From Bacteroidota bacterium (lineage in GTDB: Bacteria > Bacteroidota > Ignavibacteria > UBA10030), in NCBI GenBank assembly GCA_025454835.1, contig JALONQ010000022.1:1-43369 (forward strand): DNA of 43,369 nt, written 5' to 3'. Positions 103 through 20,484 of the stretch are shown in pieces (the stretch's first letter is position 1; the number at the start of each line of letters is the position of its first letter). The position numbers and the translations under genes are program-made. The notes under the pieces are model-generated. The model ran no database searches. It was given only the letters and a program-made list of their open reading frames with translations, and was not told the DNA's origin.

Positions 103-540
103 ATGCCAGCACGCCATCCACACCTCACGATCGCTTCTGTCGCGTTCACTCTTGTTCTGGGCTGTGGCGCTCCCTCGGACTTCGAAGGGATCTGGGCCGG
201 ACGTATGATCCAACCTGAAGGACCGCGCGCGCTCGACGGCTACCATCAGTATCTCCGGCTCGACGTCCAAGGCAACACGGTTCACGGTGTTTCACGAATT
301 GAGATCCCCGACACTGAATTCTTCGCCGAGATGTCAGCACACGGATCGATCAAGAACGACACCTTGTTCCTGACTGAAACAGCCATCGTCAACCAGCACG
401 CTCGCGAGGGGCACTTTTGGTGTCTGAAGCAAGCCTCTCTCGGGCTTGAGCGTCAGCACATGACCCTGTCGGGCGACTGGCATCCGAACGGAATGGACTG
501 TGCTCCTGGCAGGATCGAGTTGCATCGCATCTTACGCTAG
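103..540 (+). CDS. Small putative lipoprotein of unknown function (145 aa)
   Basis: The N-terminus is a short basic segment, a hydrophobic stretch and a lipobox (LVLGC, lipidated Cys near residue 21), so the product is probably an envelope lipoprotein. The mature part of about 124 residues is polar, starts with a Gly/Trp-containing segment (FEGIWAGRM) typical of small beta-rich lipoproteins, and has two further Cys near residues 107 and 132. I do not recognise a family. The ATG at 103 gives a complete signal sequence, but no clear Shine-Dalgarno precedes it. The upstream 102 bases hold no recognisable gene or convincing promoter. The stop codon lies at the left tip of the nested palindrome at 536-665. 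Confidence 0.6.
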   Translation: MPARHPHLTIASVAFTLVLGCGAPSDFEGIWAGRMIQPEGPRALDGYHQYLRLDVQGNTVHGVSRIEIPDTEFFAEMSAHGSIKNDTLFLTETAIVNQHAREGHFWCLKQASLGLERQHMTLSGDWHPNGMDCAPGRIELHRILR

Positions 541-665
541 TGCCGCTTCTCGAAAGAGATCTTGTGTGAGAAGCGTGCACTAGTGCCTGCCTGGCGGCAG
601 ACAGGCTCGTTTCCCATGCTTCTCTCACATGCCGCACAATAGAAGTGATGGAAAACGGCACTAGC
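536..665. repeat. Nested imperfect palindrome between two genes
   Basis: The outer arms are a perfect 10-bp inverted repeat: GCTAGTGCCG at 536-545 and CGGCACTAGC at 656-665. An inner pair is imperfect (TGTGTGAGAAGCGTG near 573-587 against CATGCTTCTCTCACAT near 616-632). The centre is a palindrome at 585-606 (GCCTGCCTG, GCGG, CAGACAGGC). The CTAGTGCC motif recurs at 537-544 and 580-587, and inverted at 657-664. The element fills almost the whole gap between the lipoprotein and the enoyl-CoA hydratase gene and could fold as a branched hairpin. It looks like a small non-coding interspersed element. Confidence 0.6.
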
Positions 666-697
666 AAGTCGCTCATCGAACTCATCCTCTCCTCCCC

Positions 698-1483
698 ATG
701 CCAACCTACGAGACACTCCTGACCGACGTCCGTAACGGCGTCCTGACGATCACCATGAACCGTCCGGACGTCTACAATGCCTTGAACGAGGCAATGAAGA
801 AAGAGCTGAACGATGCGTTCAAGGAAGCAGAAAAGAACGCCGAGGTCCGGTGCATCGTGCTTCGCGGCGCCGGGCAGAAGGCGTTCTGCTCCGGACAGGA
901 CCTCAAGGAGCACCAAGGGAAGAAGCGTTCGCTCAAGGAATCATTGCAGAAGAGTTACAATCCGCTCATCCGACGGATGCGGGGGATCGAAAAGCCCGTC
1001 ATCGGGATGATCAACGGCGTGGCTGCGGGGGCCGGGCTGAGCCTGGCGCTCGCGTGCGACCTTCGCATCATGTCCGATTCCGCCAAGCTGATCGAGGTCT
1101 TCGTCCGCATCGCTCTCGTGCCCGATTCCGGCTCTCATTGGTTCCTTCCCCGTCTGGTCGGGATGGCCCGGGCCTTCGAGTACGCGACGCTGGGGGACGA
1201 TGTCGCAGCGGTCGAGGCCGAGCGGGTCGGGCTCGTCAATCGCGTCGTGCCGGCGGCCGACCTCGAGAAGGAGACCATAGCGCTGGCCACGCGGATGGCC
1301 GCAGGTCCTACACGGACGATCGGCCTGATCAAGCGGACCCTCAACAAGGCGCAGACCTCATCGCTCGACGAGCTGCTGGACTATGAGGCGACGATCCAGG
1401 AGATCGCATCGAACACCGACGACCATCGTGAAGGGGTGACGGCATTCCTCGAGAAGCGGAAGGCTGAGTTCGCGGGACGCTAG
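698..1483 (+). CDS. Enoyl-CoA hydratase/isomerase family protein (PaaG-like)
   Basis: A 261-residue crotonase-fold protein of normal family length. Visible features are the oxyanion-hole segment CSGQDL near residues 64-69, the GVAAGAGLSLALACDLR core (about 107-123), and LVPDSG around 140-145, where an Asp (D143) occupies the position used by PaaG-type isomerases rather than the usual hydratase Glu. The family hydrates or isomerises enoyl-CoA intermediates. With the 3-hydroxyacyl-CoA dehydrogenase and thiolase downstream it would complete a beta-oxidation or lower phenylacetate-type route. The substrate is not determinable here, as no PaaABCDE or ligase genes are present. Start at ATG 698, just after the nested palindrome. 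Confidence 0.88.
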   Translation: MPTYETLLTDVRNGVLTITMNRPDVYNALNEAMKKELNDAFKEAEKNAEVRCIVLRGAGQKAFCSGQDLKEHQGKKRSLKESLQKSYNPLIRRMRGIEKPVIGMINGVAAGAGLSLALACDLRIMSDSAKLIEVFVRIALVPDSGSHWFLPRLVGMARAFEYATLGDDVAAVEAERVGLVNRVVPAADLEKETIALATRMAAGPTRTIGLIKRTLNKAQTSSLDELLDYEATIQEIASNTDDHREGVTAFLEKRKAEFAGR

Positions 1484-1503
1484 GAGTCGCCCAAGGAAAG
1501 AGC

Positions 1504-1581
1504 ATCCACGAAGTGACACAAATGGAAGAGACCATTTCGTGAGAGAGGCCGACTTCGTGTTCATGAGTGTACTTTGTGGAT
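1504..1581. repeat. Intergenic inverted repeat, CACGAAG type, copy 1
   Basis: ATCCACGAAGTGACAC at 1504-1519 is inverted imperfectly as GTGTACTTTGTGGAT at 1567-1581. The right half contains CGACTTCGTGT (1550-1560) and TTCGTGTTCATGAGTG (1554-1569). The first is found directly repeated and the second inverted in the spacer before the class V aminotransferase (12226-12318), so these are two copies of one dispersed element. The rest of this spacer (1582-1672) shows no gene and no clear promoter. Confidence 0.65.
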
Positions 1582-1672
1582 CGCTCCAGATTCTTGTGCT
1601 TCATCGCGTTGTTTTTCAGGCCCGTTGTCCGTAGGTTTAGGTCGGTCCAACCTCATTTCTGAACCAGACTCG

Positions 1673-2563
1673 ATGTTCAAGTACATAGCCGTGATCGGTG
1701 CGGGTACGATGGGGGCGGGAATTGCCCAAGTCGTCGCCCAGATGAAGTGCGACGTCTATCTCTACGACGTCAACGATACCCTGCTGCGCCGCGCGGTCGA
1801 GCGCATCAAGGCCGACCTGAAGAGGGCCGTTCAGAAGGGACTCATGACGCCCGAAGAGGTCCTGGCGGTCCTCGACCACATCCGCCCAAAGACCCACCTG
1901 CCCGACATGAGCCCGGCTGAGTTCGTGATCGAAGCGGTCACGGAGGACCTGCGCGTCAAGCGTGACATGCTGCGGCGGATGGAAGAGGTCGTCAAGCAGG
2001 GGGTCGTGCTTGCCACCAACACCTCCTCCATTCCCGTCACCGCCATCGCCGCCGGCTTGAAGCAGCCCTCGAAGGTCGTCGGGATGCACTTCTTCAATCC
2101 CGCGCCGATCATGAAGCTCGTCGAAGTCGTCCGCGGCGACAGGACCTCGGACGACACCCTGAAAACGACGGTCGATTTCGCTTCCTTCCTCGGCAAGACA
2201 TCCGTGACCGTCAAGGACACGCCTGGATTCATTGTCAACCGGGTCGCGCGGCCATACTACGGAGAGGCGCTCAGGATCGTTGGGGAGAATCTGGCCACGG
2301 TGGACCAGGTAGACCGTATCGCGCGTGAAGTCGCGGGTTTCGCCATGGGGCCCTTCGAACTCATGGACCTCATCGGGATCGACGTCAATCTCTCCGTCAC
2401 CCAGTCGATGTATGACCAGTTCGGCGGAGAACCCCGCTATCGGCCGCATCCGATCCAGAAGCGCATGGTCGATGCCGGAAAGCTCGGACGGAAGACGAAC
2501 GAAGGCTTCTACCGCTACGACGAATTCTCGAAGAAACGGATCGACGAACCGGGCCGCTCATGA
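1673..2563 (+). CDS. 3-hydroxyacyl-CoA dehydrogenase (NAD-dependent)
   Basis: Oxidises L-3-hydroxyacyl-CoA to 3-ketoacyl-CoA. The N-terminal Rossmann domain carries GAGTMGAG (residues 9-16); the catalytic His is in MHFFNP (H139), paired with E151 in the KLVEVV segment. The C-terminal helical domain starts near residue 184 (DTPGFIVNR) and includes GPFELMDLIGID. At 296 residues it matches single-domain Hbd-type enzymes. The reading frame is open further upstream, but ATG 1673 puts the glycine-rich loop at the normal distance from the N-terminus; no strong Shine-Dalgarno is visible. Its TGA overlaps the ATG of the next gene (ATGA), suggesting translational coupling. Confidence 0.92.
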   Translation: MFKYIAVIGAGTMGAGIAQVVAQMKCDVYLYDVNDTLLRRAVERIKADLKRAVQKGLMTPEEVLAVLDHIRPKTHLPDMSPAEFVIEAVTEDLRVKRDMLRRMEEVVKQGVVLATNTSSIPVTAIAAGLKQPSKVVGMHFFNPAPIMKLVEVVRGDRTSDDTLKTTVDFASFLGKTSVTVKDTPGFIVNRVARPYYGEALRIVGENLATVDQVDRIAREVAGFAMGPFELMDLIGIDVNLSVTQSMYDQFGGEPRYRPHPIQKRMVDAGKLGRKTNEGFYRYDEFSKKRIDEPGRS

Positions 2564-12225: not shown

Positions 12226-12318
12226 TCCACGAATAATCACTCATGAACACGAAAGAGATGAGGAGTTCGAGGAGGCATTGGTTCGACTTCGTGTCTCTGC
12301 GTATTGCTCCTTGGATCA
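12226..12318. repeat. Intergenic inverted repeat, CACGAAG type, copy 2
   Basis: TCCACGAA at 12226-12233 opens the element and CTTGGATC closes it near 12318. It shares CACTCATGAACACGAA (12238-12253), the exact reverse complement of 1554-1569, and CGACTTCGTGT (12284-12294), identical to 1550-1560, with the element at 1504-1581. It fills the spacer between the second hydrolase and the aminotransferase and runs into the aminotransferase leader. Confidence 0.6.
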
Positions 12319-12330
12319 CCTCGTAAGGAG
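12307..12330 (+). promoter_or_regulatory. Hairpin covering the Shine-Dalgarno of the aminotransferase gene
   Basis: CTCCTT at 12307-12312 is perfectly complementary to AAGGAG at 12325-12330, with a 12-base loop. AAGGAG is the ribosome-binding site, 6 bases before ATG 12337. In the mRNA this 6-bp stem would mask the site, so translation could depend on unfolding or a bound factor. The loop region reads TTGGATCACCTC, identical to the conserved 3' tail of 16S rRNA, possibly by chance. The structure is seen in sequence; a regulatory role is inferred. Confidence 0.4.
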
Positions 12331-12336
12331 ATCAGC

Positions 12337-13656
12337 ATGGGAACCCTCCACGCACCTTGGAACCGTCGCGACTTTCTGACCAGCGTCGGCAAAGGTCTTG
12401 GATTGGCGACACTCGCCTCCCCGGTCGTCGGGTCACTTCTTGATGAGCTTCACGCCGCGACGAAGGCAACGTCGCACCTGACCCCCTTTGAAGCTGCCCG
12501 CGACGAAGACTTCTGGTTCGAGATCCAGCGTTCATTCAGCATCACGCGCGGCATCACGAACCTCAACAACGGCGGAGTCTCCCCCTCGCCCCGCATCGTG
12601 ACGGAAGCGTTCGTCCGCTATATCTGGCAGCAAGAGGACGTAACGGCCTACACGATGTGGCAGATCCTCGAGCCGCAGAGCGAGACGATCCGAACCGGGT
12701 TGGCCGAAGAATTCGGATGCGACCAGGAGGAGATCGCCATCACCCGCAACGTCTCCGATGGCCTTGAGGCGATCCTGTTCGGCCTCGACCTGAAGGCCGG
12801 TGATGAGGTCCTCACGACCACGCAGGACTACCCGCGCATGCTCAACACGCTCAAACAGCGACAGCGACGTGACGGGGTGATCCTGAAGATGATCTCGATC
12901 CCAACGCCTCCGAAGAGCCTGGATGAGATCACGGCGGCGTTCGAGAAGGCCATCACGCCGAAGACCCGCGTCATTCTCATCTGCCACATGATCAATCTGA
13001 CCGGCCAGATCCTGCCGGTGAAGGACATCTGCCGTCTCGGGCGGTCCAAGGGCATCGACGTCGTCGTGGACGGTGCGCATTCGTTCGCGCACCTTGATTT
13101 CAAGCTCAAGGACCTGGACTGCGACTTCTTCGCCACTAGCCTGCACAAGTGGTTCTTCGCGCCAAAGGGGACCGGGTTCCTCTACGTCAAGAAGGACAAG
13201 ATCCCGAAGGTCTGGCCTTTGATGGCGGCCGACGAGAAGCAGGACGGAGACATCCGGAAGTTCGAGGAGATCGGAACGCACCCGGCCGCGCCGCGATTGG
13301 CCATCGGTGAGGCCCTGCTCTATCATCGCGGCATCGGACCGAAGCGGAAAGAAGAGCGAATGCGATACCTGAAGGACCACTGGGTGAACCAACTCAAGGA
13401 CCTGCCCAACGTCCGATTCCACACTTCGATGTCTCCTGACCAATCGTGCGGACTGGCCAACATCGAAGTCATGGGGATCGCGCCGGGCGCCATCGGGTCG
13501 TATCTCATGGACAAGCATAAGATCTTCACGACGCCCATCGTTCATCCGGAGTTCAAGGGGATCCGGGTCACGCCCAGCGTATACACGACGATCCCGGAGT
13601 TGGACCGTTTCTGCGGCGTCATGGCGGATGTGGCGAAGAAGGGGCTTCCCAAGTAG
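12337..13656 (+). CDS. Tat-exported class V aminotransferase (isopenicillin-N epimerase-like)
   Basis: 439 residues. The N-terminus has a twin-arginine signal (NRRDFLTSVGKGLGLATLAS), so a folded PLP protein is probably exported. The PLP-fold core has NLNNGGVSPSP, ITRNVSDGLEAILFGL, VDGAHSF (cofactor Asp) and the Schiff-base Lys in SLHKWFFAPKG (K271). Overall it resembles the CefD/isopenicillin-N epimerase group of class V enzymes, many of which are not beta-lactam enzymes; the substrate is unknown. The AAGGAG 6 bases before ATG 12337 decides the start over an earlier in-frame codon. It follows two secreted hydrolases, which may share an extracytoplasmic substrate pathway (inference). Confidence 0.83.
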   Translation: MGTLHAPWNRRDFLTSVGKGLGLATLASPVVGSLLDELHAATKATSHLTPFEAARDEDFWFEIQRSFSITRGITNLNNGGVSPSPRIVTEAFVRYIWQQEDVTAYTMWQILEPQSETIRTGLAEEFGCDQEEIAITRNVSDGLEAILFGLDLKAGDEVLTTTQDYPRMLNTLKQRQRRDGVILKMISIPTPPKSLDEITAAFEKAITPKTRVILICHMINLTGQILPVKDICRLGRSKGIDVVVDGAHSFAHLDFKLKDLDCDFFATSLHKWFFAPKGTGFLYVKKDKIPKVWPLMAADEKQDGDIRKFEEIGTHPAAPRLAIGEALLYHRGIGPKRKEERMRYLKDHWVNQLKDLPNVRFHTSMSPDQSCGLANIEVMGIAPGAIGSYLMDKHKIFTTPIVHPEFKGIRVTPSVYTTIPELDRFCGVMADVAKKGLPK

Positions 13657-13947: not shown

Positions 13948-14793
13948 ATGACCCATCGACTCACCGCTCTCGTACTGGGGATCCTGCTGAGCATGCCTCT
14001 CATCGCGCAGGTACCGGTGGTCCGCGTAAGTCCCTACGCCGAAGTAAAACAACGCATCGGCCTGACCGACGTCAGCATCACCTACCATCGCCCGGGGGTT
14101 AAAGGCCGCACCATTTGGGGCGACCTGCAGAAGTACGGCGAGATCTGGCGCGCCGGAGCGAACGAGCCGACGATCCTGACGACGACAGATTCCCTGACCG
14201 TCAGCGGCAAGACGCTTCCTCCCGGTTCATACCGCCTTGCCGTGATCCCCGCAGCCTCCGGCAATTGGTCCTTCATCTTTAATTCGGAAGTGAAGAACTG
14301 GGGGACCGTGTATGATTCGACCTATGACCTGCTTCGCCTTTCCATCCCCCCAACGGCCGCCCCGCACGAGGAGTGGATGTCCTTCTCCTTCGAAGACCTG
14401 ACGGCGACCAGCGCCGTGCTCGTGCTTCACTGGGAGAAGGTCGCTCTGCGCGTACCGCTGTCGGTCAATACCGCCGGCAAATTCGCAGCCCTGACGCGGA
14501 CGGCGAACAGTACGTCGATGGGTACAGTCATGGCCCATTCACGCTTCTTGCTCGAGAATGGCGGCGACCTTGGGCAGGCCGAGAAGCTGGCCGATCAGGC
14601 GAACGCGATGCAGGAGGGAGCGGGAACGTTGCGGCTGAAGGCAGAGATCCTGGCGAAACAAGGGAAGTTCAGCGACGCCATCAAGTCGGCGGAGAAGGCC
14701 ATCCAGGTTGGCAAGGCCGCGAATCCGAACTTCAACGCAACCTTCCTGAACAGCCTGATCACCGAGTGGAAAGAAAAGGGCGGGAAGAAATAG
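13948..14793 (+). CDS. DUF2911 domain protein with TPR-like C-terminus, exported
   Basis: 281 residues with a signal peptide (LTALVLGILLSMPLIAQ). The DUF2911 domain spans about residues 25-170, with SPYAEVKQRIG, the conserved YHRPGVKGRTIWG, GEIWRAGANEPT and LPPGSYRLAVIP segments. The final ~90 residues form helical repeats (FLLENGGDLGQAEKLADQA, KAEILAKQGKFSDAIKSAEKAI) that look like one or two TPR-type hairpins. Biochemical role unknown; the family is common in Bacteroidota envelopes. CAGGAG lies 7-12 bases before the ATG. A GC-rich hairpin (14830-14847) ends the transcription unit before the convergent symporter gene. Confidence 0.85.
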   Translation: MTHRLTALVLGILLSMPLIAQVPVVRVSPYAEVKQRIGLTDVSITYHRPGVKGRTIWGDLQKYGEIWRAGANEPTILTTTDSLTVSGKTLPPGSYRLAVIPAASGNWSFIFNSEVKNWGTVYDSTYDLLRLSIPPTAAPHEEWMSFSFEDLTATSAVLVLHWEKVALRVPLSVNTAGKFAALTRTANSTSMGTVMAHSRFLLENGGDLGQAEKLADQANAMQEGAGTLRLKAEILAKQGKFSDAIKSAEKAIQVGKAANPNFNATFLNSLITEWKEKGGKK

Positions 14794-14850: not shown

Positions 14851-16548
14851 CTATTGCACCTCGTTCGGCCGAGGGAGGAACACCTGGATGACAACAGCGC
14901 TGGCAACCACGGCCCCGCAACCGATCACGTTGTACCATAGCCAGGAAATGTCGGTCCAGAAGAAGCACGCAAAGACCGCCGCCTCTCCGACGAATGCCGA
15001 CCAGAAGACCGCCGTTCCTCCCACCCACTTCACAAAGAAGGCCAGCAGGAAGATCCCCAGCAAGGTGCCGTAGAAAAGCGATCCGATGATATTCACCGCC
15101 TCAATGAGCGACCCCAGTCGCACGGCATACTGCGAGAAAAAGATCGCGTAGAGCCCCCACCCGGCCATGAACCAGCGGGAGGCCTTCAGGACTTCCCGAT
15201 CGGAGGCTTCCGGCCGCCAGTGTCGGCGGTAGAAGTCCACAATGGAAGCGGTGGCCAGGGCGCTCAGTTCGCCGCTGCTCGATGTCAGCGAGGCTGCGAA
15301 GACGCAGGCGAACAACAGACCGATGAGTCCGACGGGAAGATAGTTCAGGACGAACGTCAGAAAAACATAATTCGTGTCGCTCGGGTCGGCTTTCGGATTC
15401 GTCCGCACGATGGCCGCCGTGGCGGATTCGCGTGCAGAGGATTTGGCGGTCTTCCATTGTTCGATCAGAATGGCCGCATCGACGGCAGCGTCGGCATCGC
15501 CGGCACGCTCAGCCTCAAGGTACTCGCGGTAGGCCCTCTGCTGTCCCTCGTGCGCCTGTGCAAACGACGCCTCGGCCGATTCGAACATCTCCCGGAACTC
15601 CCCGGACCGCACCCGCTCGACCTCCACGGGATTGAAAAAGACCGGAGGGCGCTCGAACTGATACACGACGAAGACCATCACGCCGATCAGCAGTATGAAG
15701 AACTGCATCGGCACCTTCGCCATGCCGTTGAACAGCAGGCCCAGCCGGCTTTGCGTCACCGACGCACCTGTCAAATAGCGCTGGACCTGCGATTGGTCTG
15801 TCCCGAAATAGGCCAGCGCAATGAACAGACCACCGATCAAGCCCGACCACAGCGTGTACCGATCCTCAAGGTCGAAGGTCAGATCGATGGCGTTCATCCG
15901 TCCGGCCACGCCGGCAACGCTGAACGCTTCCGACACCGTGATATCGTCGGGAAGGGCCATGAAGGTCGCGACGAACGCCACCATCATGCCGAACATGATG
16001 ACGGCGAACAGCTGGACGTCGGCCCAGTTCACGGCCTTGACGCCTCCCGTGGCCATGATGAGAATGATGGCCCCGCCGATGCCGGCCGAGGTCCAGCGGA
16101 TGTCCCAGCCCATCAGCACCGACAGCAGGAGTGAAGGAGCGTAGATCGTCATGCCCGCCCCCAATCCACGCTGCAACAGGAACATGAGGCTCGTGAGCGT
16201 CCGCGTCTTCAGGTCGAATCGGTTCTCGAGAAACTCATACGCCGTGTAGACGCCGAGCCGGTGGAACAGCGGCACGACCGTGACGCACAGGATCACCATC
16301 GCGATCGGCAGGCCGAAATAGTACTGCACGAACCGCAGGCCGTCGGCGTATGCCTGACCGGGCGTGGAGGTGAACGTGATGGCGCTTGCCTGCGTCGCCA
16401 TGATCGAAAGCGCGACGGCATACCACGGCATGCCACGATCGGCCAGGAGGAATCCCCTGACGTCGCGGCTCCCGCGACCCTTCCAGATGCCCCAGCTGAC
16501 GAGCGTGCCGAGCGTGAGAAGGAGGACGGTCCAGTCGATCCAGCTCAT
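14851..16548 (-). CDS. Sodium:solute symporter (SSS) family transporter
   Basis: 565 residues with a dozen or more hydrophobic segments. SSS features include the N-terminal segment followed by FLLADRGMPWYAVALSIMATQASAITFTSTPGQAY (about 35-69), the VQYYFGLP region, and FGTDQSQVQRYLTG in the middle. A hydrophilic, highly charged insertion of about 85 residues (roughly 315-400, EVERVRSGEFREM through NPKADPSD) separates the transmembrane blocks. The start at ATG 16548 overlaps the stop of a 47-residue membrane protein gene, so the long open frame upstream is discarded. The transported solute is unknown; co-expression with a PIG-L deacetylase suggests a sugar, amino-sugar derivative or related product. 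Confidence 0.88.
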   Translation of the reverse strand: MSWIDWTVLLLTLGTLVSWGIWKGRGSRDVRGFLLADRGMPWYAVALSIMATQASAITFTSTPGQAYADGLRFVQYYFGLPIAMVILCVTVVPLFHRLGVYTAYEFLENRFDLKTRTLTSLMFLLQRGLGAGMTIYAPSLLLSVLMGWDIRWTSAGIGGAIILIMATGGVKAVNWADVQLFAVIMFGMMVAFVATFMALPDDITVSEAFSVAGVAGRMNAIDLTFDLEDRYTLWSGLIGGLFIALAYFGTDQSQVQRYLTGASVTQSRLGLLFNGMAKVPMQFFILLIGVMVFVVYQFERPPVFFNPVEVERVRSGEFREMFESAEASFAQAHEGQQRAYREYLEAERAGDADAAVDAAILIEQWKTAKSSARESATAAIVRTNPKADPSDTNYVFLTFVLNYLPVGLIGLLFACVFAASLTSSSGELSALATASIVDFYRRHWRPEASDREVLKASRWFMAGWGLYAIFFSQYAVRLGSLIEAVNIIGSLFYGTLLGIFLLAFFVKWVGGTAVFWSAFVGEAAVFACFFWTDISWLWYNVIGCGAVVASAVVIQVFLPRPNEVQ

Positions 16549-16688
16549 CGATACGCCTCTGTCAGCAGATACGCGGCGATCATGATCACGATGAGTTCGG
16601 CCACGACGACGGCGTACCAGCGCCGCCACGTTCCGAACACCGGCGGGTCGTCATGTCGCCACTGGGGGGTATGGCCTTGATCGCTCAT
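16545..16688 (-). CDS. 47-residue single-span membrane protein between deacetylase and symporter
   Basis: A short gene with an ATG at 16688 overlapping the deacetylase stop (ATGA) and a TGA overlapping the symporter ATG (ATGA). The product begins MSDQGHTPQWRHDDPPV, then TWRRWYAVVVAELIVIMI with a hydrophobic segment at about residues 25-42, and ends LLTEAYR. The positive patch WRRW just before the span predicts N-in orientation. No homologue is recognised. Two coupling overlaps and a clean transmembrane segment argue for a real gene, perhaps a small subunit or chaperone of the SSS transporter, by analogy with small subunits of other SSS systems (inference). Confidence 0.68.
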   Translation of the reverse strand: MSDQGHTPQWRHDDPPVFGTWRRWYAVVVAELIVIMIAAYLLTEAYR

Positions 16689-19156
16689 GGACGACCGAGG
16701 GAAACAAGATTGGCCAGCAGTCGGTAGGCCCCCGGCACGCCTGCAGGGATCTGGCGGAAAAAGGACAGGCCGGTGTAGACGAAGTGCCCCCTCCCGATCT
16801 TCGCGACGAGTAGTCCACCTTTCCGTGGCGGTTCGCCGGCGTCATTCGCCGACAGCAAGGGGATGAACGTCCCGTCCCACGACGAGGCGTAGTACAAACC
16901 TCGCTCCTGGACCCAACCGTCCAGGTCCTGGGGCACGATACGGTTGGGTGCGTTCATGACCCGATGGCGCGGGTCGAGGATCTCCATCGGAGCGTCCTCC
17001 TCCGTCACACGCTCCCTCCCAATGACGAGCGGGACCGGGGCGATATCATCCGACTCGCCGCGCGCCGTCGTTTGATACTGGACGATGACCGTCCCGCCAT
17101 TTCGCACATATTCATCGAACCGGCGCTTCGCAACCCTGAGGGCAGGCCGGGTATTGAACGCGCGAACGCCGACCACGATCGCATCGTACGAACTCCAGCC
17201 AGCGGTCCCGAGCGCCTCATCGGTCAGCAATTCGACCCGGCATCCGAGACGCCGCAATCCCTCGGCCACGTCGTCCCCGGCCCCCATCACGTAACCGATC
17301 GATGCTGCCCGCACAGCGACCGGTATCGACAACAGCCGAGCCATCGCCGGCACATGGAGCGTCTGATGTGGTATGTGGTCATATGCCGCCTCGACGACAC
17401 CGACGCCGACTCGGCGACCCTCGATCTCGACGGTCGCCCGAGCCACGCCGCTCTTGGCGGAACGGGACGGCCGCACCTCGAACGTGAACGATCGAACTTC
17501 GTCAACGTTCCATTGGTCCATCGTCCTCGCGACCGGGAGCGACGTCCATCCTTCCGGAAGCTCCAGGCGCACGCTCGCCGTCGCCCCTGCCCGGACGGTC
17601 TTGACAAGCACCGTCACCGTTCGAGATGCTTGTGACGGAAAGACATGGACCGGTTCTGTGAACGACACGTGCACCGGCGTCGTCGTAATGACGGGTCGGT
17701 AGACCTCACCATCCACCGGATCGATGCGCCTGTGGCGCACCGGTATCACTCGCTCGACGCGGACGCCAGAGACCTCGAGGTCGACGCTGACGGAGAAGGC
17801 CGGTCCGCCCTCGGCCAAGCCAATGAGCCTGGGGTCGGCGATCGTGTATCGGAATGCCTCGTGTTCCGACCTCAGCCAGTAGGGCTGTGTGGCCACCTTC
17901 GAAGAAGGCACCAAGCCGGCCAATGTGCTGACTTTCTGCACCAGCGGCTCGAGCACGAGCGGCGCATCCGAACGTGCGCCCGTCCCCTCCACCGTCCATG
18001 ACCTGACACGCACAGACACGTCGCTGCGATTCACGGCCGTCAGTGTCACCAGAAGACTGTCGCCGGCAACAACGGACGAGCGGGGGGCCAGCGCGTCGAG
18101 CCACACACCGGCGCAAGCCACGATCAGGTCATCGACCTCGGAGAGCTTTCGGTTCTTCCACATCCCGTCCGGAAGATCTACCACCTTCGCCCGAATGGAG
18201 AGAAGAATCGGTATGCTCCGCCCCGGCCGGCGATCATCGAAAGCGGCGCGCATTGAATCGATGAGCTTCTGAGTACTGCCGTCGTCGCCCAGACGCCGCC
18301 ACGTGAGGTCCACGCCGTCGAACAGATCGGCCCGTGCGCTGTCTCCCCAAACGTGCTGGAAGACGTTCACCGCGCTCGACCGGTTCTGCACGGCTCCGAA
18401 TCCCTGGCTCTTGTGCATCGTACGGGCCTCGCCGGCCAGCTCGGTGTACGATCGGCCGATCACCGGATCGAACGATCCAAGGTCCTCGGTCACCGCGCCA
18501 GCCGGAACCGCATCACCGGTCCCTTGCCGGAAGACGTTCCACACCAGCCGCCGAGGCGACCAGAGAGTGTGATCGGTCAATTGTTCCGGGAACCGCGAAG
18601 CATCGCCCGCGGCACGGACGGCCTCGGCGGTCAGCGCCGCAGACGCCGTGTGGTTACCATGGCCCCCAAGTTCCGGCGTGAACCGCGTCACGACCACATC
18701 GGGTCGAAAGCGGCGGATGACTCTGACGAGATCTCCGACGATCTCCTCGCGTCCCCAGAACCGAAGCGTCTCCTCCGTCGTCTTGGAGTAGCCGAAGTCG
18801 ATCGCCCGCGTAAAGGACTGCTCACCGCCGTCGACGGAGCGCGCAGCGAGCAGTTCCTGCGTACGGATCATGCCCAGCAGGTCCCCCTGCTCGGGACCGA
18901 TCAGGTTCTGTCCCCCCTCTCCGCGCGTGATCGAAAGGTAGGCGGCCCGGACATTACGGCCGTGGACCATGGCCGCCAGAAAAGCCGTGTTCTCATCATC
19001 GGGATGGGCCGCGACATAGAGCACACTTCCGACGGTCGCCAACCGGTCGATCGATTCCCGGATATCAGACGCCGATGACGGACGAGGAGACTGGCCGAAC
19101 GCTCCTGACACGACGGCAAGGGGCAACAGGACAGACAACAGTAGCACGCGGGGCAT
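16685..19156 (-). CDS. Exported PIG-L (LmbE-like) deacetylase, large form
   Basis: 823 residues, signal peptide (LLLSVLLPLAVVSGAFGQ). The N-terminal ~250 residues are a PIG-L/LmbE zinc deacetylase domain with AHPDDE (H51, D53, D54), an ITRGEGGQN segment, and GGHGNH (H166, H169). This fold removes N-acetyl groups from GlcNAc-type substrates (mycothiol, bacillithiol and GPI pathways). The remaining ~570 residues are beta-rich, with a segment near 640-800 containing a probable flavodoxin/GATase-like block (GYVMGAGDDVAEGLRRLG, DAIVVGVRAFN). Such long forms are usual in Bacteroidota. It is first in an operon with a small membrane protein and an SSS symporter, driven by the promoter at 19187-19215. 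Confidence 0.88.
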   Translation of the reverse strand: MPRVLLLSVLLPLAVVSGAFGQSPRPSSASDIRESIDRLATVGSVLYVAAHPDDENTAFLAAMVHGRNVRAAYLSITRGEGGQNLIGPEQGDLLGMIRTQELLAARSVDGGEQSFTRAIDFGYSKTTEETLRFWGREEIVGDLVRVIRRFRPDVVVTRFTPELGGHGNHTASAALTAEAVRAAGDASRFPEQLTDHTLWSPRRLVWNVFRQGTGDAVPAGAVTEDLGSFDPVIGRSYTELAGEARTMHKSQGFGAVQNRSSAVNVFQHVWGDSARADLFDGVDLTWRRLGDDGSTQKLIDSMRAAFDDRRPGRSIPILLSIRAKVVDLPDGMWKNRKLSEVDDLIVACAGVWLDALAPRSSVVAGDSLLVTLTAVNRSDVSVRVRSWTVEGTGARSDAPLVLEPLVQKVSTLAGLVPSSKVATQPYWLRSEHEAFRYTIADPRLIGLAEGGPAFSVSVDLEVSGVRVERVIPVRHRRIDPVDGEVYRPVITTTPVHVSFTEPVHVFPSQASRTVTVLVKTVRAGATASVRLELPEGWTSLPVARTMDQWNVDEVRSFTFEVRPSRSAKSGVARATVEIEGRRVGVGVVEAAYDHIPHQTLHVPAMARLLSIPVAVRAASIGYVMGAGDDVAEGLRRLGCRVELLTDEALGTAGWSSYDAIVVGVRAFNTRPALRVAKRRFDEYVRNGGTVIVQYQTTARGESDDIAPVPLVIGRERVTEEDAPMEILDPRHRVMNAPNRIVPQDLDGWVQERGLYYASSWDGTFIPLLSANDAGEPPRKGGLLVAKIGRGHFVYTGLSFFRQIPAGVPGAYRLLANLVSLGRP

Positions 19157-19186
19157 GGATCTCGCACGAATTGAACGGGACGCATG

Positions 19187-19215
19187 AATATAGCGGGGTT
19201 GGCCTGAAGCTGCAA
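19187..19215 (-). promoter_or_regulatory. Sigma70-type promoter for the deacetylase-symporter operon
   Basis: On the minus strand, TTGCAG (19210-19215) is separated by exactly 17 bases from TATATT (19187-19192). The predicted start is near 19180, giving a leader of about 24 bases before ATG 19156. The identical hexamer pair and spacing occur upstream of the aldolase gene (37080-37108). The divergent gene at 19270 may use TTGGGC (19220-19225), 16 bases, TATCTT (19242-19247). Confidence 0.55.
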
Positions 19216-19269
19216 GGTTTTGGGCTTCCGCGATTCTTTCCTATCTTGACCTGCCTATCCAACCCTTCC

Positions 19270-20484
19270 ATGCGAACCATTCTCCCGATCGCTTTCTTGG
19301 CCGCGATCATCGCCGGATGTCAGGCGCCGCTTCCCGACGATGCGCGATGGTCCGGATCGCTGCAAATGTACGGCGGCCGATCCTTGTCGCTCGAACTCCT
19401 CCTCGACCATTCACCGCAACCGACGGCATGGCTTGTCGTCGGAGACGAGCATACACTCGTCCCCGAGGTCATGGTCCGCGGCGATTCGGTCATCCTGACC
19501 TTCGCGGAATACGGCGCGGCGATCCGTGCCGCATGGGATGGCGCTCGCTTGAACGGGTTCTACGAGCGCTATCGACGCGACACCCTTCGCATCCCCTGGT
19601 CCGCCCGCCCAGCCGGTGCGCAGGTGAAGGTGCACGCCTCCACGCCCCCCGCCGTGGCACTCGTCGGCTCGTTCCGCGTCTTCTATCAGCGAGACGCGGG
19701 ATTCGATACGCTGTCGTCCGCCACCTTCTGGGCCCGGGGCGATTCGATCTTCGGGTCCTTCGTCGCGGCCGACGGCGACCTCGGCCTTTTTGCCGGGATC
19801 CAGCGCGGAGACAGCGTCGTGCTCGACCGCTTCAACGGATGGCAAGCTTTGAAACTTGAGTTAAAGAATGAAGGCCGTCATTGGACGGGACAGCTCTTCT
19901 CGCGCGACCTGCGACCGACCGACCTGCGCCTCGAAGCGCGTCCCGAAGCCGCACCTGTTCTGCCGGCAGATCGGGTCGCCTCGCCCGTCGATCCGAAAGC
20001 GCGCTTCCAGTTCTCCGGCGTCACGCCCGAAGGCGAGGTCATCACCGAGTCTTCTTCGCGGTTCAACGGGAAGGCGCTCATCGTCGACATCATGGGTACG
20101 TGGTGCCACAACTGCATGGACGCCGCCCCCATCCTTCAGAGGATCGCGCAGGAATACCGCTCAAGGGGGCTTGAGGTCGTTGCGCTCTCGTTCGAGTTGA
20201 GCGACGACTCGGCTGCCGGCAGGCGGAATCTCGCTATCTATCGGAAGAAGTACGGCCTCGACTTCACGTTGTTGTTCTGCGGCAGCACGGACGCCACGTA
20301 CACCGACCCCGCGTTGCGCCGTCAGATCAAGAACTTCGGCGCCTATCCGACCACGCTCTTTATCGACCGCCGGGGACGCATCGAAGACATCCACGTGGGT
20401 TTCCGCGGACCCGGCGCCGGGGCTGCGTATCAGCGAGAGATCGAACTGCTGTATCGCAAAGCCGAAGAACTGACGGGACGGTGA
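19270..20484 (+). CDS. TlpA-like thioredoxin-fold lipoprotein with N-terminal extension
   Basis: 404 residues. A lipobox (IIAGC, C17) marks it as a lipoprotein. Residues ~20-235 form a beta-rich region without a recognised family, resembling the N-terminal parts of Bacteroidota thiol-disulfide lipoproteins. The C-terminal ~150 residues are a TlpA/ResA-type thioredoxin domain with GTWCHNCMDAAP (redox Cys C279 and C282), VVALSFE and the cis-Pro region GAYPTTLFIDRRG. It probably reduces disulfides in exported proteins or cytochromes. ATG 19270 is chosen because the upstream open frame lacks the signal; the lipobox fixes it. Its stop overlaps a GTG of the next gene. Confidence 0.87.
   Translation: MRTILPIAFLAAIIAGCQAPLPDDARWSGSLQMYGGRSLSLELLLDHSPQPTAWLVVGDEHTLVPEVMVRGDSVILTFAEYGAAIRAAWDGARLNGFYERYRRDTLRIPWSARPAGAQVKVHASTPPAVALVGSFRVFYQRDAGFDTLSSATFWARGDSIFGSFVAADGDLGLFAGIQRGDSVVLDRFNGWQALKLELKNEGRHWTGQLFSRDLRPTDLRLEARPEAAPVLPADRVASPVDPKARFQFSGVTPEGEVITESSSRFNGKALIVDIMGTWCHNCMDAAPILQRIAQEYRSRGLEVVALSFELSDDSAAGRRNLAIYRKKYGLDFTLLFCGSTDATYTDPALRRQIKNFGAYPTTLFIDRRGRIEDIHVGFRGPGAGAAYQREIELLYRKAEELTGR

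Follow-up and report, generated by a model that had tools for sequence, protein, structure and literature searches.

A predicted single-helix partner of an SSS-family sodium symporter and the probable link of its gene set to bacillithiol

The window analyzed here, the whole 43,369-nucleotide stretch of DNA from a member of the Bacteroidota, encodes a 47-residue protein with a single predicted transmembrane helix between a PIG-L/LmbE-type metal hydrolase and a sodium symporter of the SSS family. This small protein is very probably an accessory subunit of the symporter, and the module formed by the three genes is likely to have some link to bacillithiol; taken jointly, these two statements are assigned a probability of about 0.6. 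The small-protein family is new to Pfam and NCBIfam; its type, a small partner of an SSS transporter, is already known. It would add a single-helix partner family to the SSS transporters, possibly a simple counterpart of the SGLT2-MAP17 pair, and the module hints at a route for recovering bacillithiol building blocks. The positions of the respective genes are listed in Table 1.

Table 1. Features of the PIG-L/small-protein/SSS region in the window
Feature	Position	Strand	Basis or comment
DUF2911 protein, convergent with SSS, 57 bases between the stops	13948..14793	+	PF11138, E 9.8e-44
SSS (SLC5-type) sodium symporter, 565 aa from the ATG at 16548	14851..16548	-	PF00474, E 1.4e-30; TIGR00813, 207 bits versus cut-off 184
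ATGA overlap, small-ORF stop and SSS start	16545..16548	-	sequence read
Small ORF, 47 aa, one predicted transmembrane helix (~25-43)	16545..16688	-	ATG start at 16688
ATGA overlap, PIG-L stop and small-ORF start	16685..16688	-	sequence read
PIG-L/LmbE-type metal hydrolase, 823 aa, C-terminal Rossmann-like region	16685..19156	-	PF02585, E 4e-17, 63.3 bits versus 28.2

The product of the small ORF, MSDQGHTPQWRHDDPPVFGTWRRWYAVVVAELIVIMIAAYLLTEAYR, has a polar N-terminus with two prolines, followed by the basic patch W21-R22-R23 and then by its sole hydrophobic stretch, in which the best 19-residue window (residues 25 to 43) has a mean Kyte-Doolittle value of 2.32. The original prediction, made from the DNA sequence alone, had described exactly such a basic patch followed by one transmembrane helix, as well as the 4-base overlaps with both neighbors, and these features are borne out; the location of the gene on the reverse strand had not been stated there. 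A scan of the 47-residue protein against Pfam and NCBIfam returned no family at cut-off. When 18 members of the family were scanned singly against the same databases, the output consisted of three lone, weak, and unrelated matches (DUF2976, FixQ, and AmaP), with E values of 0.0029 or worse.

Small ORFs in the same position are found at a large number of loci. Among the best 30 PIG-L loci from 296 genomes, one of which is the window, an ORF of 33 to 52 residues precedes the SSS gene in all 18 loci that have an SSS gene in the examined flank (window counted). Similarly, in the window's own family, from which 23 loci including the window itself were examined, the small ORF is present in each of the 21 loci that reach the SSS N-terminus. 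The profile for the small protein was built from those 18 sequences and applied to a set of named loci, the best 80 of 585, which had been found via the SSS protein alone. It matched directly upstream of the SSS gene in 77 of these 80 loci, with E values of 0.016 or better; one of the 77 (L066) duplicates a profile seed. In L065, the match is located 3.7 kb upstream of the SSS gene instead of adjoining it, and L081 and L099 yielded no small-ORF profile match upstream of SSS. Judging by the titles of the 80 records, these loci come from Bacteroidota (including Ignavibacteriales), Acidobacteria, Aminicenantes, Eisenbacteria, Calditrichia, Myxococcales, and Deltaproteobacteria.

A wider SSS collection, with duplicates counted, gave a comparable picture: 235 of the 255 loci with an SSS N-terminus have a match within 1 kb upstream at the lax threshold of E up to 1, and 228 of the 235 matches are at E 0.01 or better (the collection omits L001, L002, and L033 to L038, and five loci are without the SSS N-terminus). 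Six of the 20 missed loci represent three genomes counted twice (G349, G365, and G394). The small ORF missed in L277 is present in L013, which covers a longer stretch of the flank, and inspection by eye showed short hydrophobic ORFs in four other misses (L207, L255, L263, and L273).

The small frame is under selection. It is intact in 21 close relatives, which form 210 pairs, and dN/dS is below 1 in all 48 pairs that are comparable (pS <0.70), with a median of 0.32. For the 210 pairs pooled, the pN/pS ratio amounts to 0.46 in the coding frame, compared with 0.94 and 1.75 when the frame is shifted. These ratios and the conservation in the named loci rule out a spurious ORF, and it is virtually certain that the small ORF is a real gene. 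The 4-base ATGA shared by the small ORF and the SSS start, which is seen in 163 of the 235 loci of the SSS collection, would also suit a translational coupler or leader placed between PIG-L and SSS and devoid of any protein function. However, the spacing differs in the other 72 loci, three genes intervene between the small ORF and the SSS gene in L065, and it is the residues, not the length alone, that are conserved: of the 193 non-identical full small-protein/SSS pairs, 192 retain Y25 and 182 retain W21. Together with the low dN/dS and the periodicity of the helix face described below, this leaves the coupler reading hardly credible.

The small gene goes with the SSS gene and not with the PIG-L gene, because the former pair is kept when PIG-L is absent, is located downstream, or is encoded elsewhere. 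A reverse search from the small protein produced matches at E 0.01 or better in 101 of the 296 genomes, two of which (G093 and G204) rest on weak matches with internal stops. In 46 of the 48 genomes that were read (50 loci), an SSS gene lies immediately downstream on the same strand, with spacings that range from a 3-base overlap to 89 bases; removal of the 17 genomes that had provided profile seeds leaves 29 of 31. In the f30 genomes, the small ORF and SSS form a pair without a large PIG-L match, and the SSS proteins are only ∼41 to 43% identical to the queries. Among the named loci (best 80 of 585), 17 have no PIG-L gene within 3 kb upstream, and the small ORF is kept before SSS in 14 of these 17; in L131, the contig is too short to judge. 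Six loci from Acidobacteria (L286, L287, L288, L290, L292, and L293) have the order small ORF-SSS-PIG-L. Finally, 12 of the best 30 PIG-L loci have no SSS gene in the flank, and eight of these genomes encode the small ORF and SSS together elsewhere, either just past the examined flank (G099, G166, and G261) or on another contig or far from PIG-L (G037, G178, G190, G249, and G279).

These arrangements bear on the alternative that the small protein serves the PIG-L enzyme, e.g., as its membrane anchor, and precedes SSS only as a consequence of the operon structure. Such a role would fit the position of the small ORF between PIG-L and SSS in the window, as well as L065, G394, and G349, the exceptions in which the small ORF stays by PIG-L and the SSS gene is located elsewhere. 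Nevertheless, given that the small gene remains with SSS wherever PIG-L is missing, moved, or placed downstream, partnership with PIG-L is the less likely option, and an anchor function is very improbable. The association with the SSS transporter that the original prediction had put forward is, accordingly, well supported by gene order, and the conserved small ORF at homologous loci and the dN/dS below 1, which it had named as checks, were both found. Two of its points need modification. A deacetylase that releases the transported product may plausibly be tied to the pair, but the tie is not an obligatory one, and the small ORF, which was to be looked for across Bacteroidota, extends to several other phyla.

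Some loci depart from the common pattern in other ways. PIG-L abuts SSS with no gene in between in L233, L236, L249, and L248; L081, L099, L266, and L267 have an SSS gene without a neighboring small ORF, as far as the profile detects one within 1 kb upstream; and L334 and L343 have a small ORF without SSS. In L343, where the SSS gene is gone, the gene for a sodium:sulfate/citrate-type transporter converges on the small ORF. Five loci (L015, L089, L097, L105, and L133) have, in addition, another short hydrophobic ORF that is rich in glycine and ∼60 residues long, between PIG-L and the small ORF. A small protein common to all SSS genes was also considered, but this is not so in the window genome, in which no profile match at the four other SSS loci (L033 to L036) has an E value better than 0.67.

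Conservation within the small protein recurs with the 100-degree period of a helix (p = 0.00035 by permutation), and the conserved face consists of W21, Y25, V28, L32, M36, A39, T43, and Y46. Given that the helix is conserved on one side, it can be expected to pack on a protein. To model a homologous pair, the small ORF and SSS of L208 were folded as one chain, with the in-frame stop between the two genes set to glycine (67 rows, 27 of them spanning both genes). The model, with a mean pLDDT of 90.9 and a pTM of 0.90, predicts a single confident helix (residues 11 to 35) in the small protein, followed by a linker (residues 38 to 50) with pLDDT below 50. Coevolution between the small protein and SSS was measured as mutual information with average-product correction; across 193 pairs, for which the effective number was 143, the highest scores between the two proteins equaled those from 60 within-clade shuffles.

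The symporter itself has the SLC5 fold. The L208 model matches SiaT with a Z score of 40.7 and an rmsd of 2.2 over 464 residues, and it also matches SMCT1, NIS, and SGLT2; nearly all the aligned ranges of the model in this comparison begin at residue 39 or later, i.e., they cover the symporter part and leave the small helix outside. In terms of sequence, the nearest solved proteins are SMVT (E 2.7e-44), SMCT1, and SiaT. The SSS protein described here thus shares its fold and sequence homology with SiaT, SMCT1, SMVT, NIS, and SGLT but differs from them in representing a separate subfamily with a partner gene. A search of plasmid records gave no match to the SSS protein of L103.

The PIG-L protein has a signal-peptide-like start (assigned by eye) and contains the HPDDE and HGNH motifs, in which H51-P52-D53-D54-E55, H166, and H169 are invariant across 30 aligned sequences; its model has a mean pLDDT of 87.6. 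Among the solved structures, the closest to it in both sequence and fold is MshB of the mycothiol pathway; BC1534 of Bacillus cereus is also among the close ones. Similarly to MshB, Mca, Bca, and BshB, this protein includes the PIG-L domain and the metal motif. In contrast to them, it has 823 residues, begins with a stretch resembling a signal peptide, carries additional domains at its C-terminus, and reaches none of the NCBIfam equivalog cut-offs for Mca, Bca, MshB, or BshB, the best score being 40.7 bits versus 224.35 for MshB.

Small proteins encoded beside SSS genes include those of the DUF4212, DUF485 (YjcH with ActP), and DUF997 (YhdT with PanF) families. The members of these families and of DUF3311 contain two or more helices. 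The DUF3311 gene adjoins that of MctP, according to part of the text of PMC9100948. The small gene described here resembles all four in coding for a small membrane protein next to an SSS gene, but no match to their Pfam or NCBIfam models was obtained with any of the 18 scanned members. A further parallel is MAP17 (PDZK1IP1), the auxiliary subunit of SGLT2, which contacts TM13 of the transporter with one helix and is needed for its function or surface level, as described in a portion of PMC10803289. Like MAP17 with the human SGLT2 and SGLT1, the small protein is a predicted single-helix protein and a proposed partner of an SLC5/SSS transporter, given that the SSS protein has the SLC5 fold; unlike MAP17, it is bacterial, co-operonic, and shorter. 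When its profile was compared with the PDB sequences, no MAP17 chain was retrieved at E up to 10.

Outside Bacteroidota, the PIG-L, small-protein, and SSS genes often adjoin or enclose the bacillithiol genes BshC-BshB1-BshA, a context that the original prediction did not mention. At four loci, a complete bsh operon is collinear with the module. The genes run PIG-L, small ORF, BshC, BshB1, BshA, and SSS in L065, where all three bsh genes score above the NCBIfam cut-offs; in L289 and L291, the arrangement is DUF2911-BshC-BshB1-BshA-PIG-L-small ORF-SSS on a single strand, and L174 repeats this gene order. L297 contains DUF2911, PIG-L, BshC, BshB1, BshA, and SSS with no small-ORF match. DUF2911 genes open the bsh operons in L174, L289, L291, and L297, or lie close to their start, and DUF2911-like ORFs occur in 34 of the named loci (best 80 of 585); the DUF2911 protein may be a further member of the module. 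A BshC match was detected in all 23 tested SSS-carrier genomes outside Bacteroidota, in 17 of them above the cut-off. In L286, L288, and L292, a MutL-like gene (recognized by eye) lies beside BshC, between it and the small ORF-SSS-PIG-L genes.

In the phylum of G342 (titled Myxococcales), represented by 140 genomes, BshC is encoded in 13 of the 14 SSS carriers versus none of the 126 other genomes (Fisher p = 2e-17); it was G342 that selected this phylum for testing, so that one of the 13 double-positive genomes is not independent. The sole SSS carrier without BshC, G473, has its SSS gene cut at a contig edge. The bsh genes are located beside PIG-L, the small ORF, or SSS in 12 of the 13 double-positive genomes, usually divergent from PIG-L-small ORF-SSS, and in 9 of the 13 they share a contig with SSS within ∼6 kb. 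In G394, G349, and G476, they lie beside PIG-L with SSS on a different contig, and in G365 the contigs with bsh and SSS are separate.

The phylum of G345 (titled Acidobacteria) was tabulated with 159 genomes, from which G492 was dropped (40% identity, partial SSS match). A BshC match was found in 50 of the 52 SSS carriers versus 51 of the 106 non-carriers (p = 1.6e-10); if the weakest BshC matches are set aside, these numbers become 43 of 52 versus 44 of 106 (p = 6e-7), seven of the 50 BshC-positive carriers having only a weak, divergent match. BshC is encoded within ∼7 kb of SSS or the small gene in 8 of the 52 carriers, namely, G522, G589, G598, G603, G625, G629, G641, and G633, the last one at a contig edge. 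Carriers such as G560, G581, G590, and G599 show a weak BshC-like match around model positions 320 to 380 and no full match. The p-values in both tables overstate independence because the genomes within each phylum are related, and the recurrent linkage in differing gene orders is a stronger argument than these values.

The situation in Bacteroidota is different. In the window genome, BshC is encoded on another contig than the module, and no bsh genes were found at any Bacteroidota locus among the named loci (best 80 of 585), within flanks of ∼5 kb, some of which were ended by the contig. In the sample of this phylum, BshC is present in 291 of the 296 genomes, so co-occurrence says little here. 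Given that the small ORF is found in just 101 of these genomes, bacillithiol does not depend on the module. All five genomes that lack BshC fall outside these 101 carriers, which agrees with the link, although five genomes are too few to count.

The lack of bsh genes near the module in the window and at these Bacteroidota loci would be expected if the small protein were an SSS subunit but the solute had no relation to bacillithiol, being, for example, glucosamine or another aminosugar produced by PIG-L enzymes, with the bsh linkage an accident of shared operons in some lineages. The nearest solved SSS relatives, SMVT, SMCT1, and SiaT, carry varied solutes, which is compatible with such an option. 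Further, in an f30 genome lacking the large PIG-L, the pair of small ORF and SSS (L328, positions 205-1876, reverse strand) neighbors genes for a 289-residue PIG-L protein with a signal-like start and for glucosamine-6-phosphate isomerase; this setting fits general aminosugar uptake and so keeps the alternative alive. However, a shared-operon accident does not readily account for the recurrence of the bsh linkage across gene orders and lineages or for the distribution of BshC in the G342 phylum, and a solute unrelated to bacillithiol appears rather unlikely.

If the small protein is indeed an SSS subunit in a module linked to bacillithiol, a salvage route can be sketched, albeit tentatively in its exact form: an exported amidase, a two-part sodium symporter, and recharging by BshC, with everything from the substrate of the enzyme onward inferred. 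The helix, presumably with its N-terminus inside and its C-terminus outside, would pack on the symporter and might aid its folding, stability, or arrival at the membrane, in a role like that of MAP17 toward SGLT2. PIG-L, once exported, could act as a periplasmic amidase on bacillithiol (Cys-GlcN-malate) or bacillithiol conjugates, the freed glucosamine-malate would enter with sodium via SSS and its small subunit, and BshC would then recharge the imported glucosamine-malate with cysteine. Glutathione is salvaged via gamma-glutamyl transpeptidase. That route is similar in relying on an enzyme that opens the protected bond of a thiol and thereby frees its components for reuse; it involves a different thiol and a different enzyme superfamily, and the proposed importer here is a sodium symporter.

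Several published observations are relevant to this scheme. Bacillithiol derivatives are the most widespread thiols in bacteria, according to the title of PMC6282198, and a section of that paper discusses a thiol shuttle between the periplasm and the cytoplasm; nowhere in that paper is the word “symport” used. In the available part of PMC4101496, Mca and Bca of the PIG-L/LmbE superfamily are described as amidases whose glucosamine product is recycled, or presumably so, and an excerpt of PMC6336425 states that dedicated amide hydrolases are needed for the release of cysteine from bacillithiol. In the literature consulted, mostly open-access, no account of the PIG-L/small-protein/SSS gene set or of its link to bacillithiol was recognized; the accessible portion of PMC12817932 contains nothing on the module. 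If the scheme is true, the symporter would carry a moiety of bacillithiol and, with its helper, would be the equivalent in bacteria of SGLT2 with MAP17. Thiol traffic between the periplasm and the cytoplasm would become testable with such a gene set, in which a sodium symporter, its helper, and an exported hydrolase are linked to bsh genes in several lineages.

Two other genes in the window deserve a mention. The one at positions 12304-13656 (forward strand) codes for a protein similar to class V aminotransferases or cysteine desulfurases with a twin-arginine-like start, which is PvdN-like by NCBIfam but scores below the cut-off. The other, at positions 19075-20484 (forward strand) and divergent from PIG-L, encodes a protein with a C-terminal ResA/TlpA-like, thioredoxin-type domain, so that a thiol-disulfide protein adjoins a possibly thiol-linked gene set.
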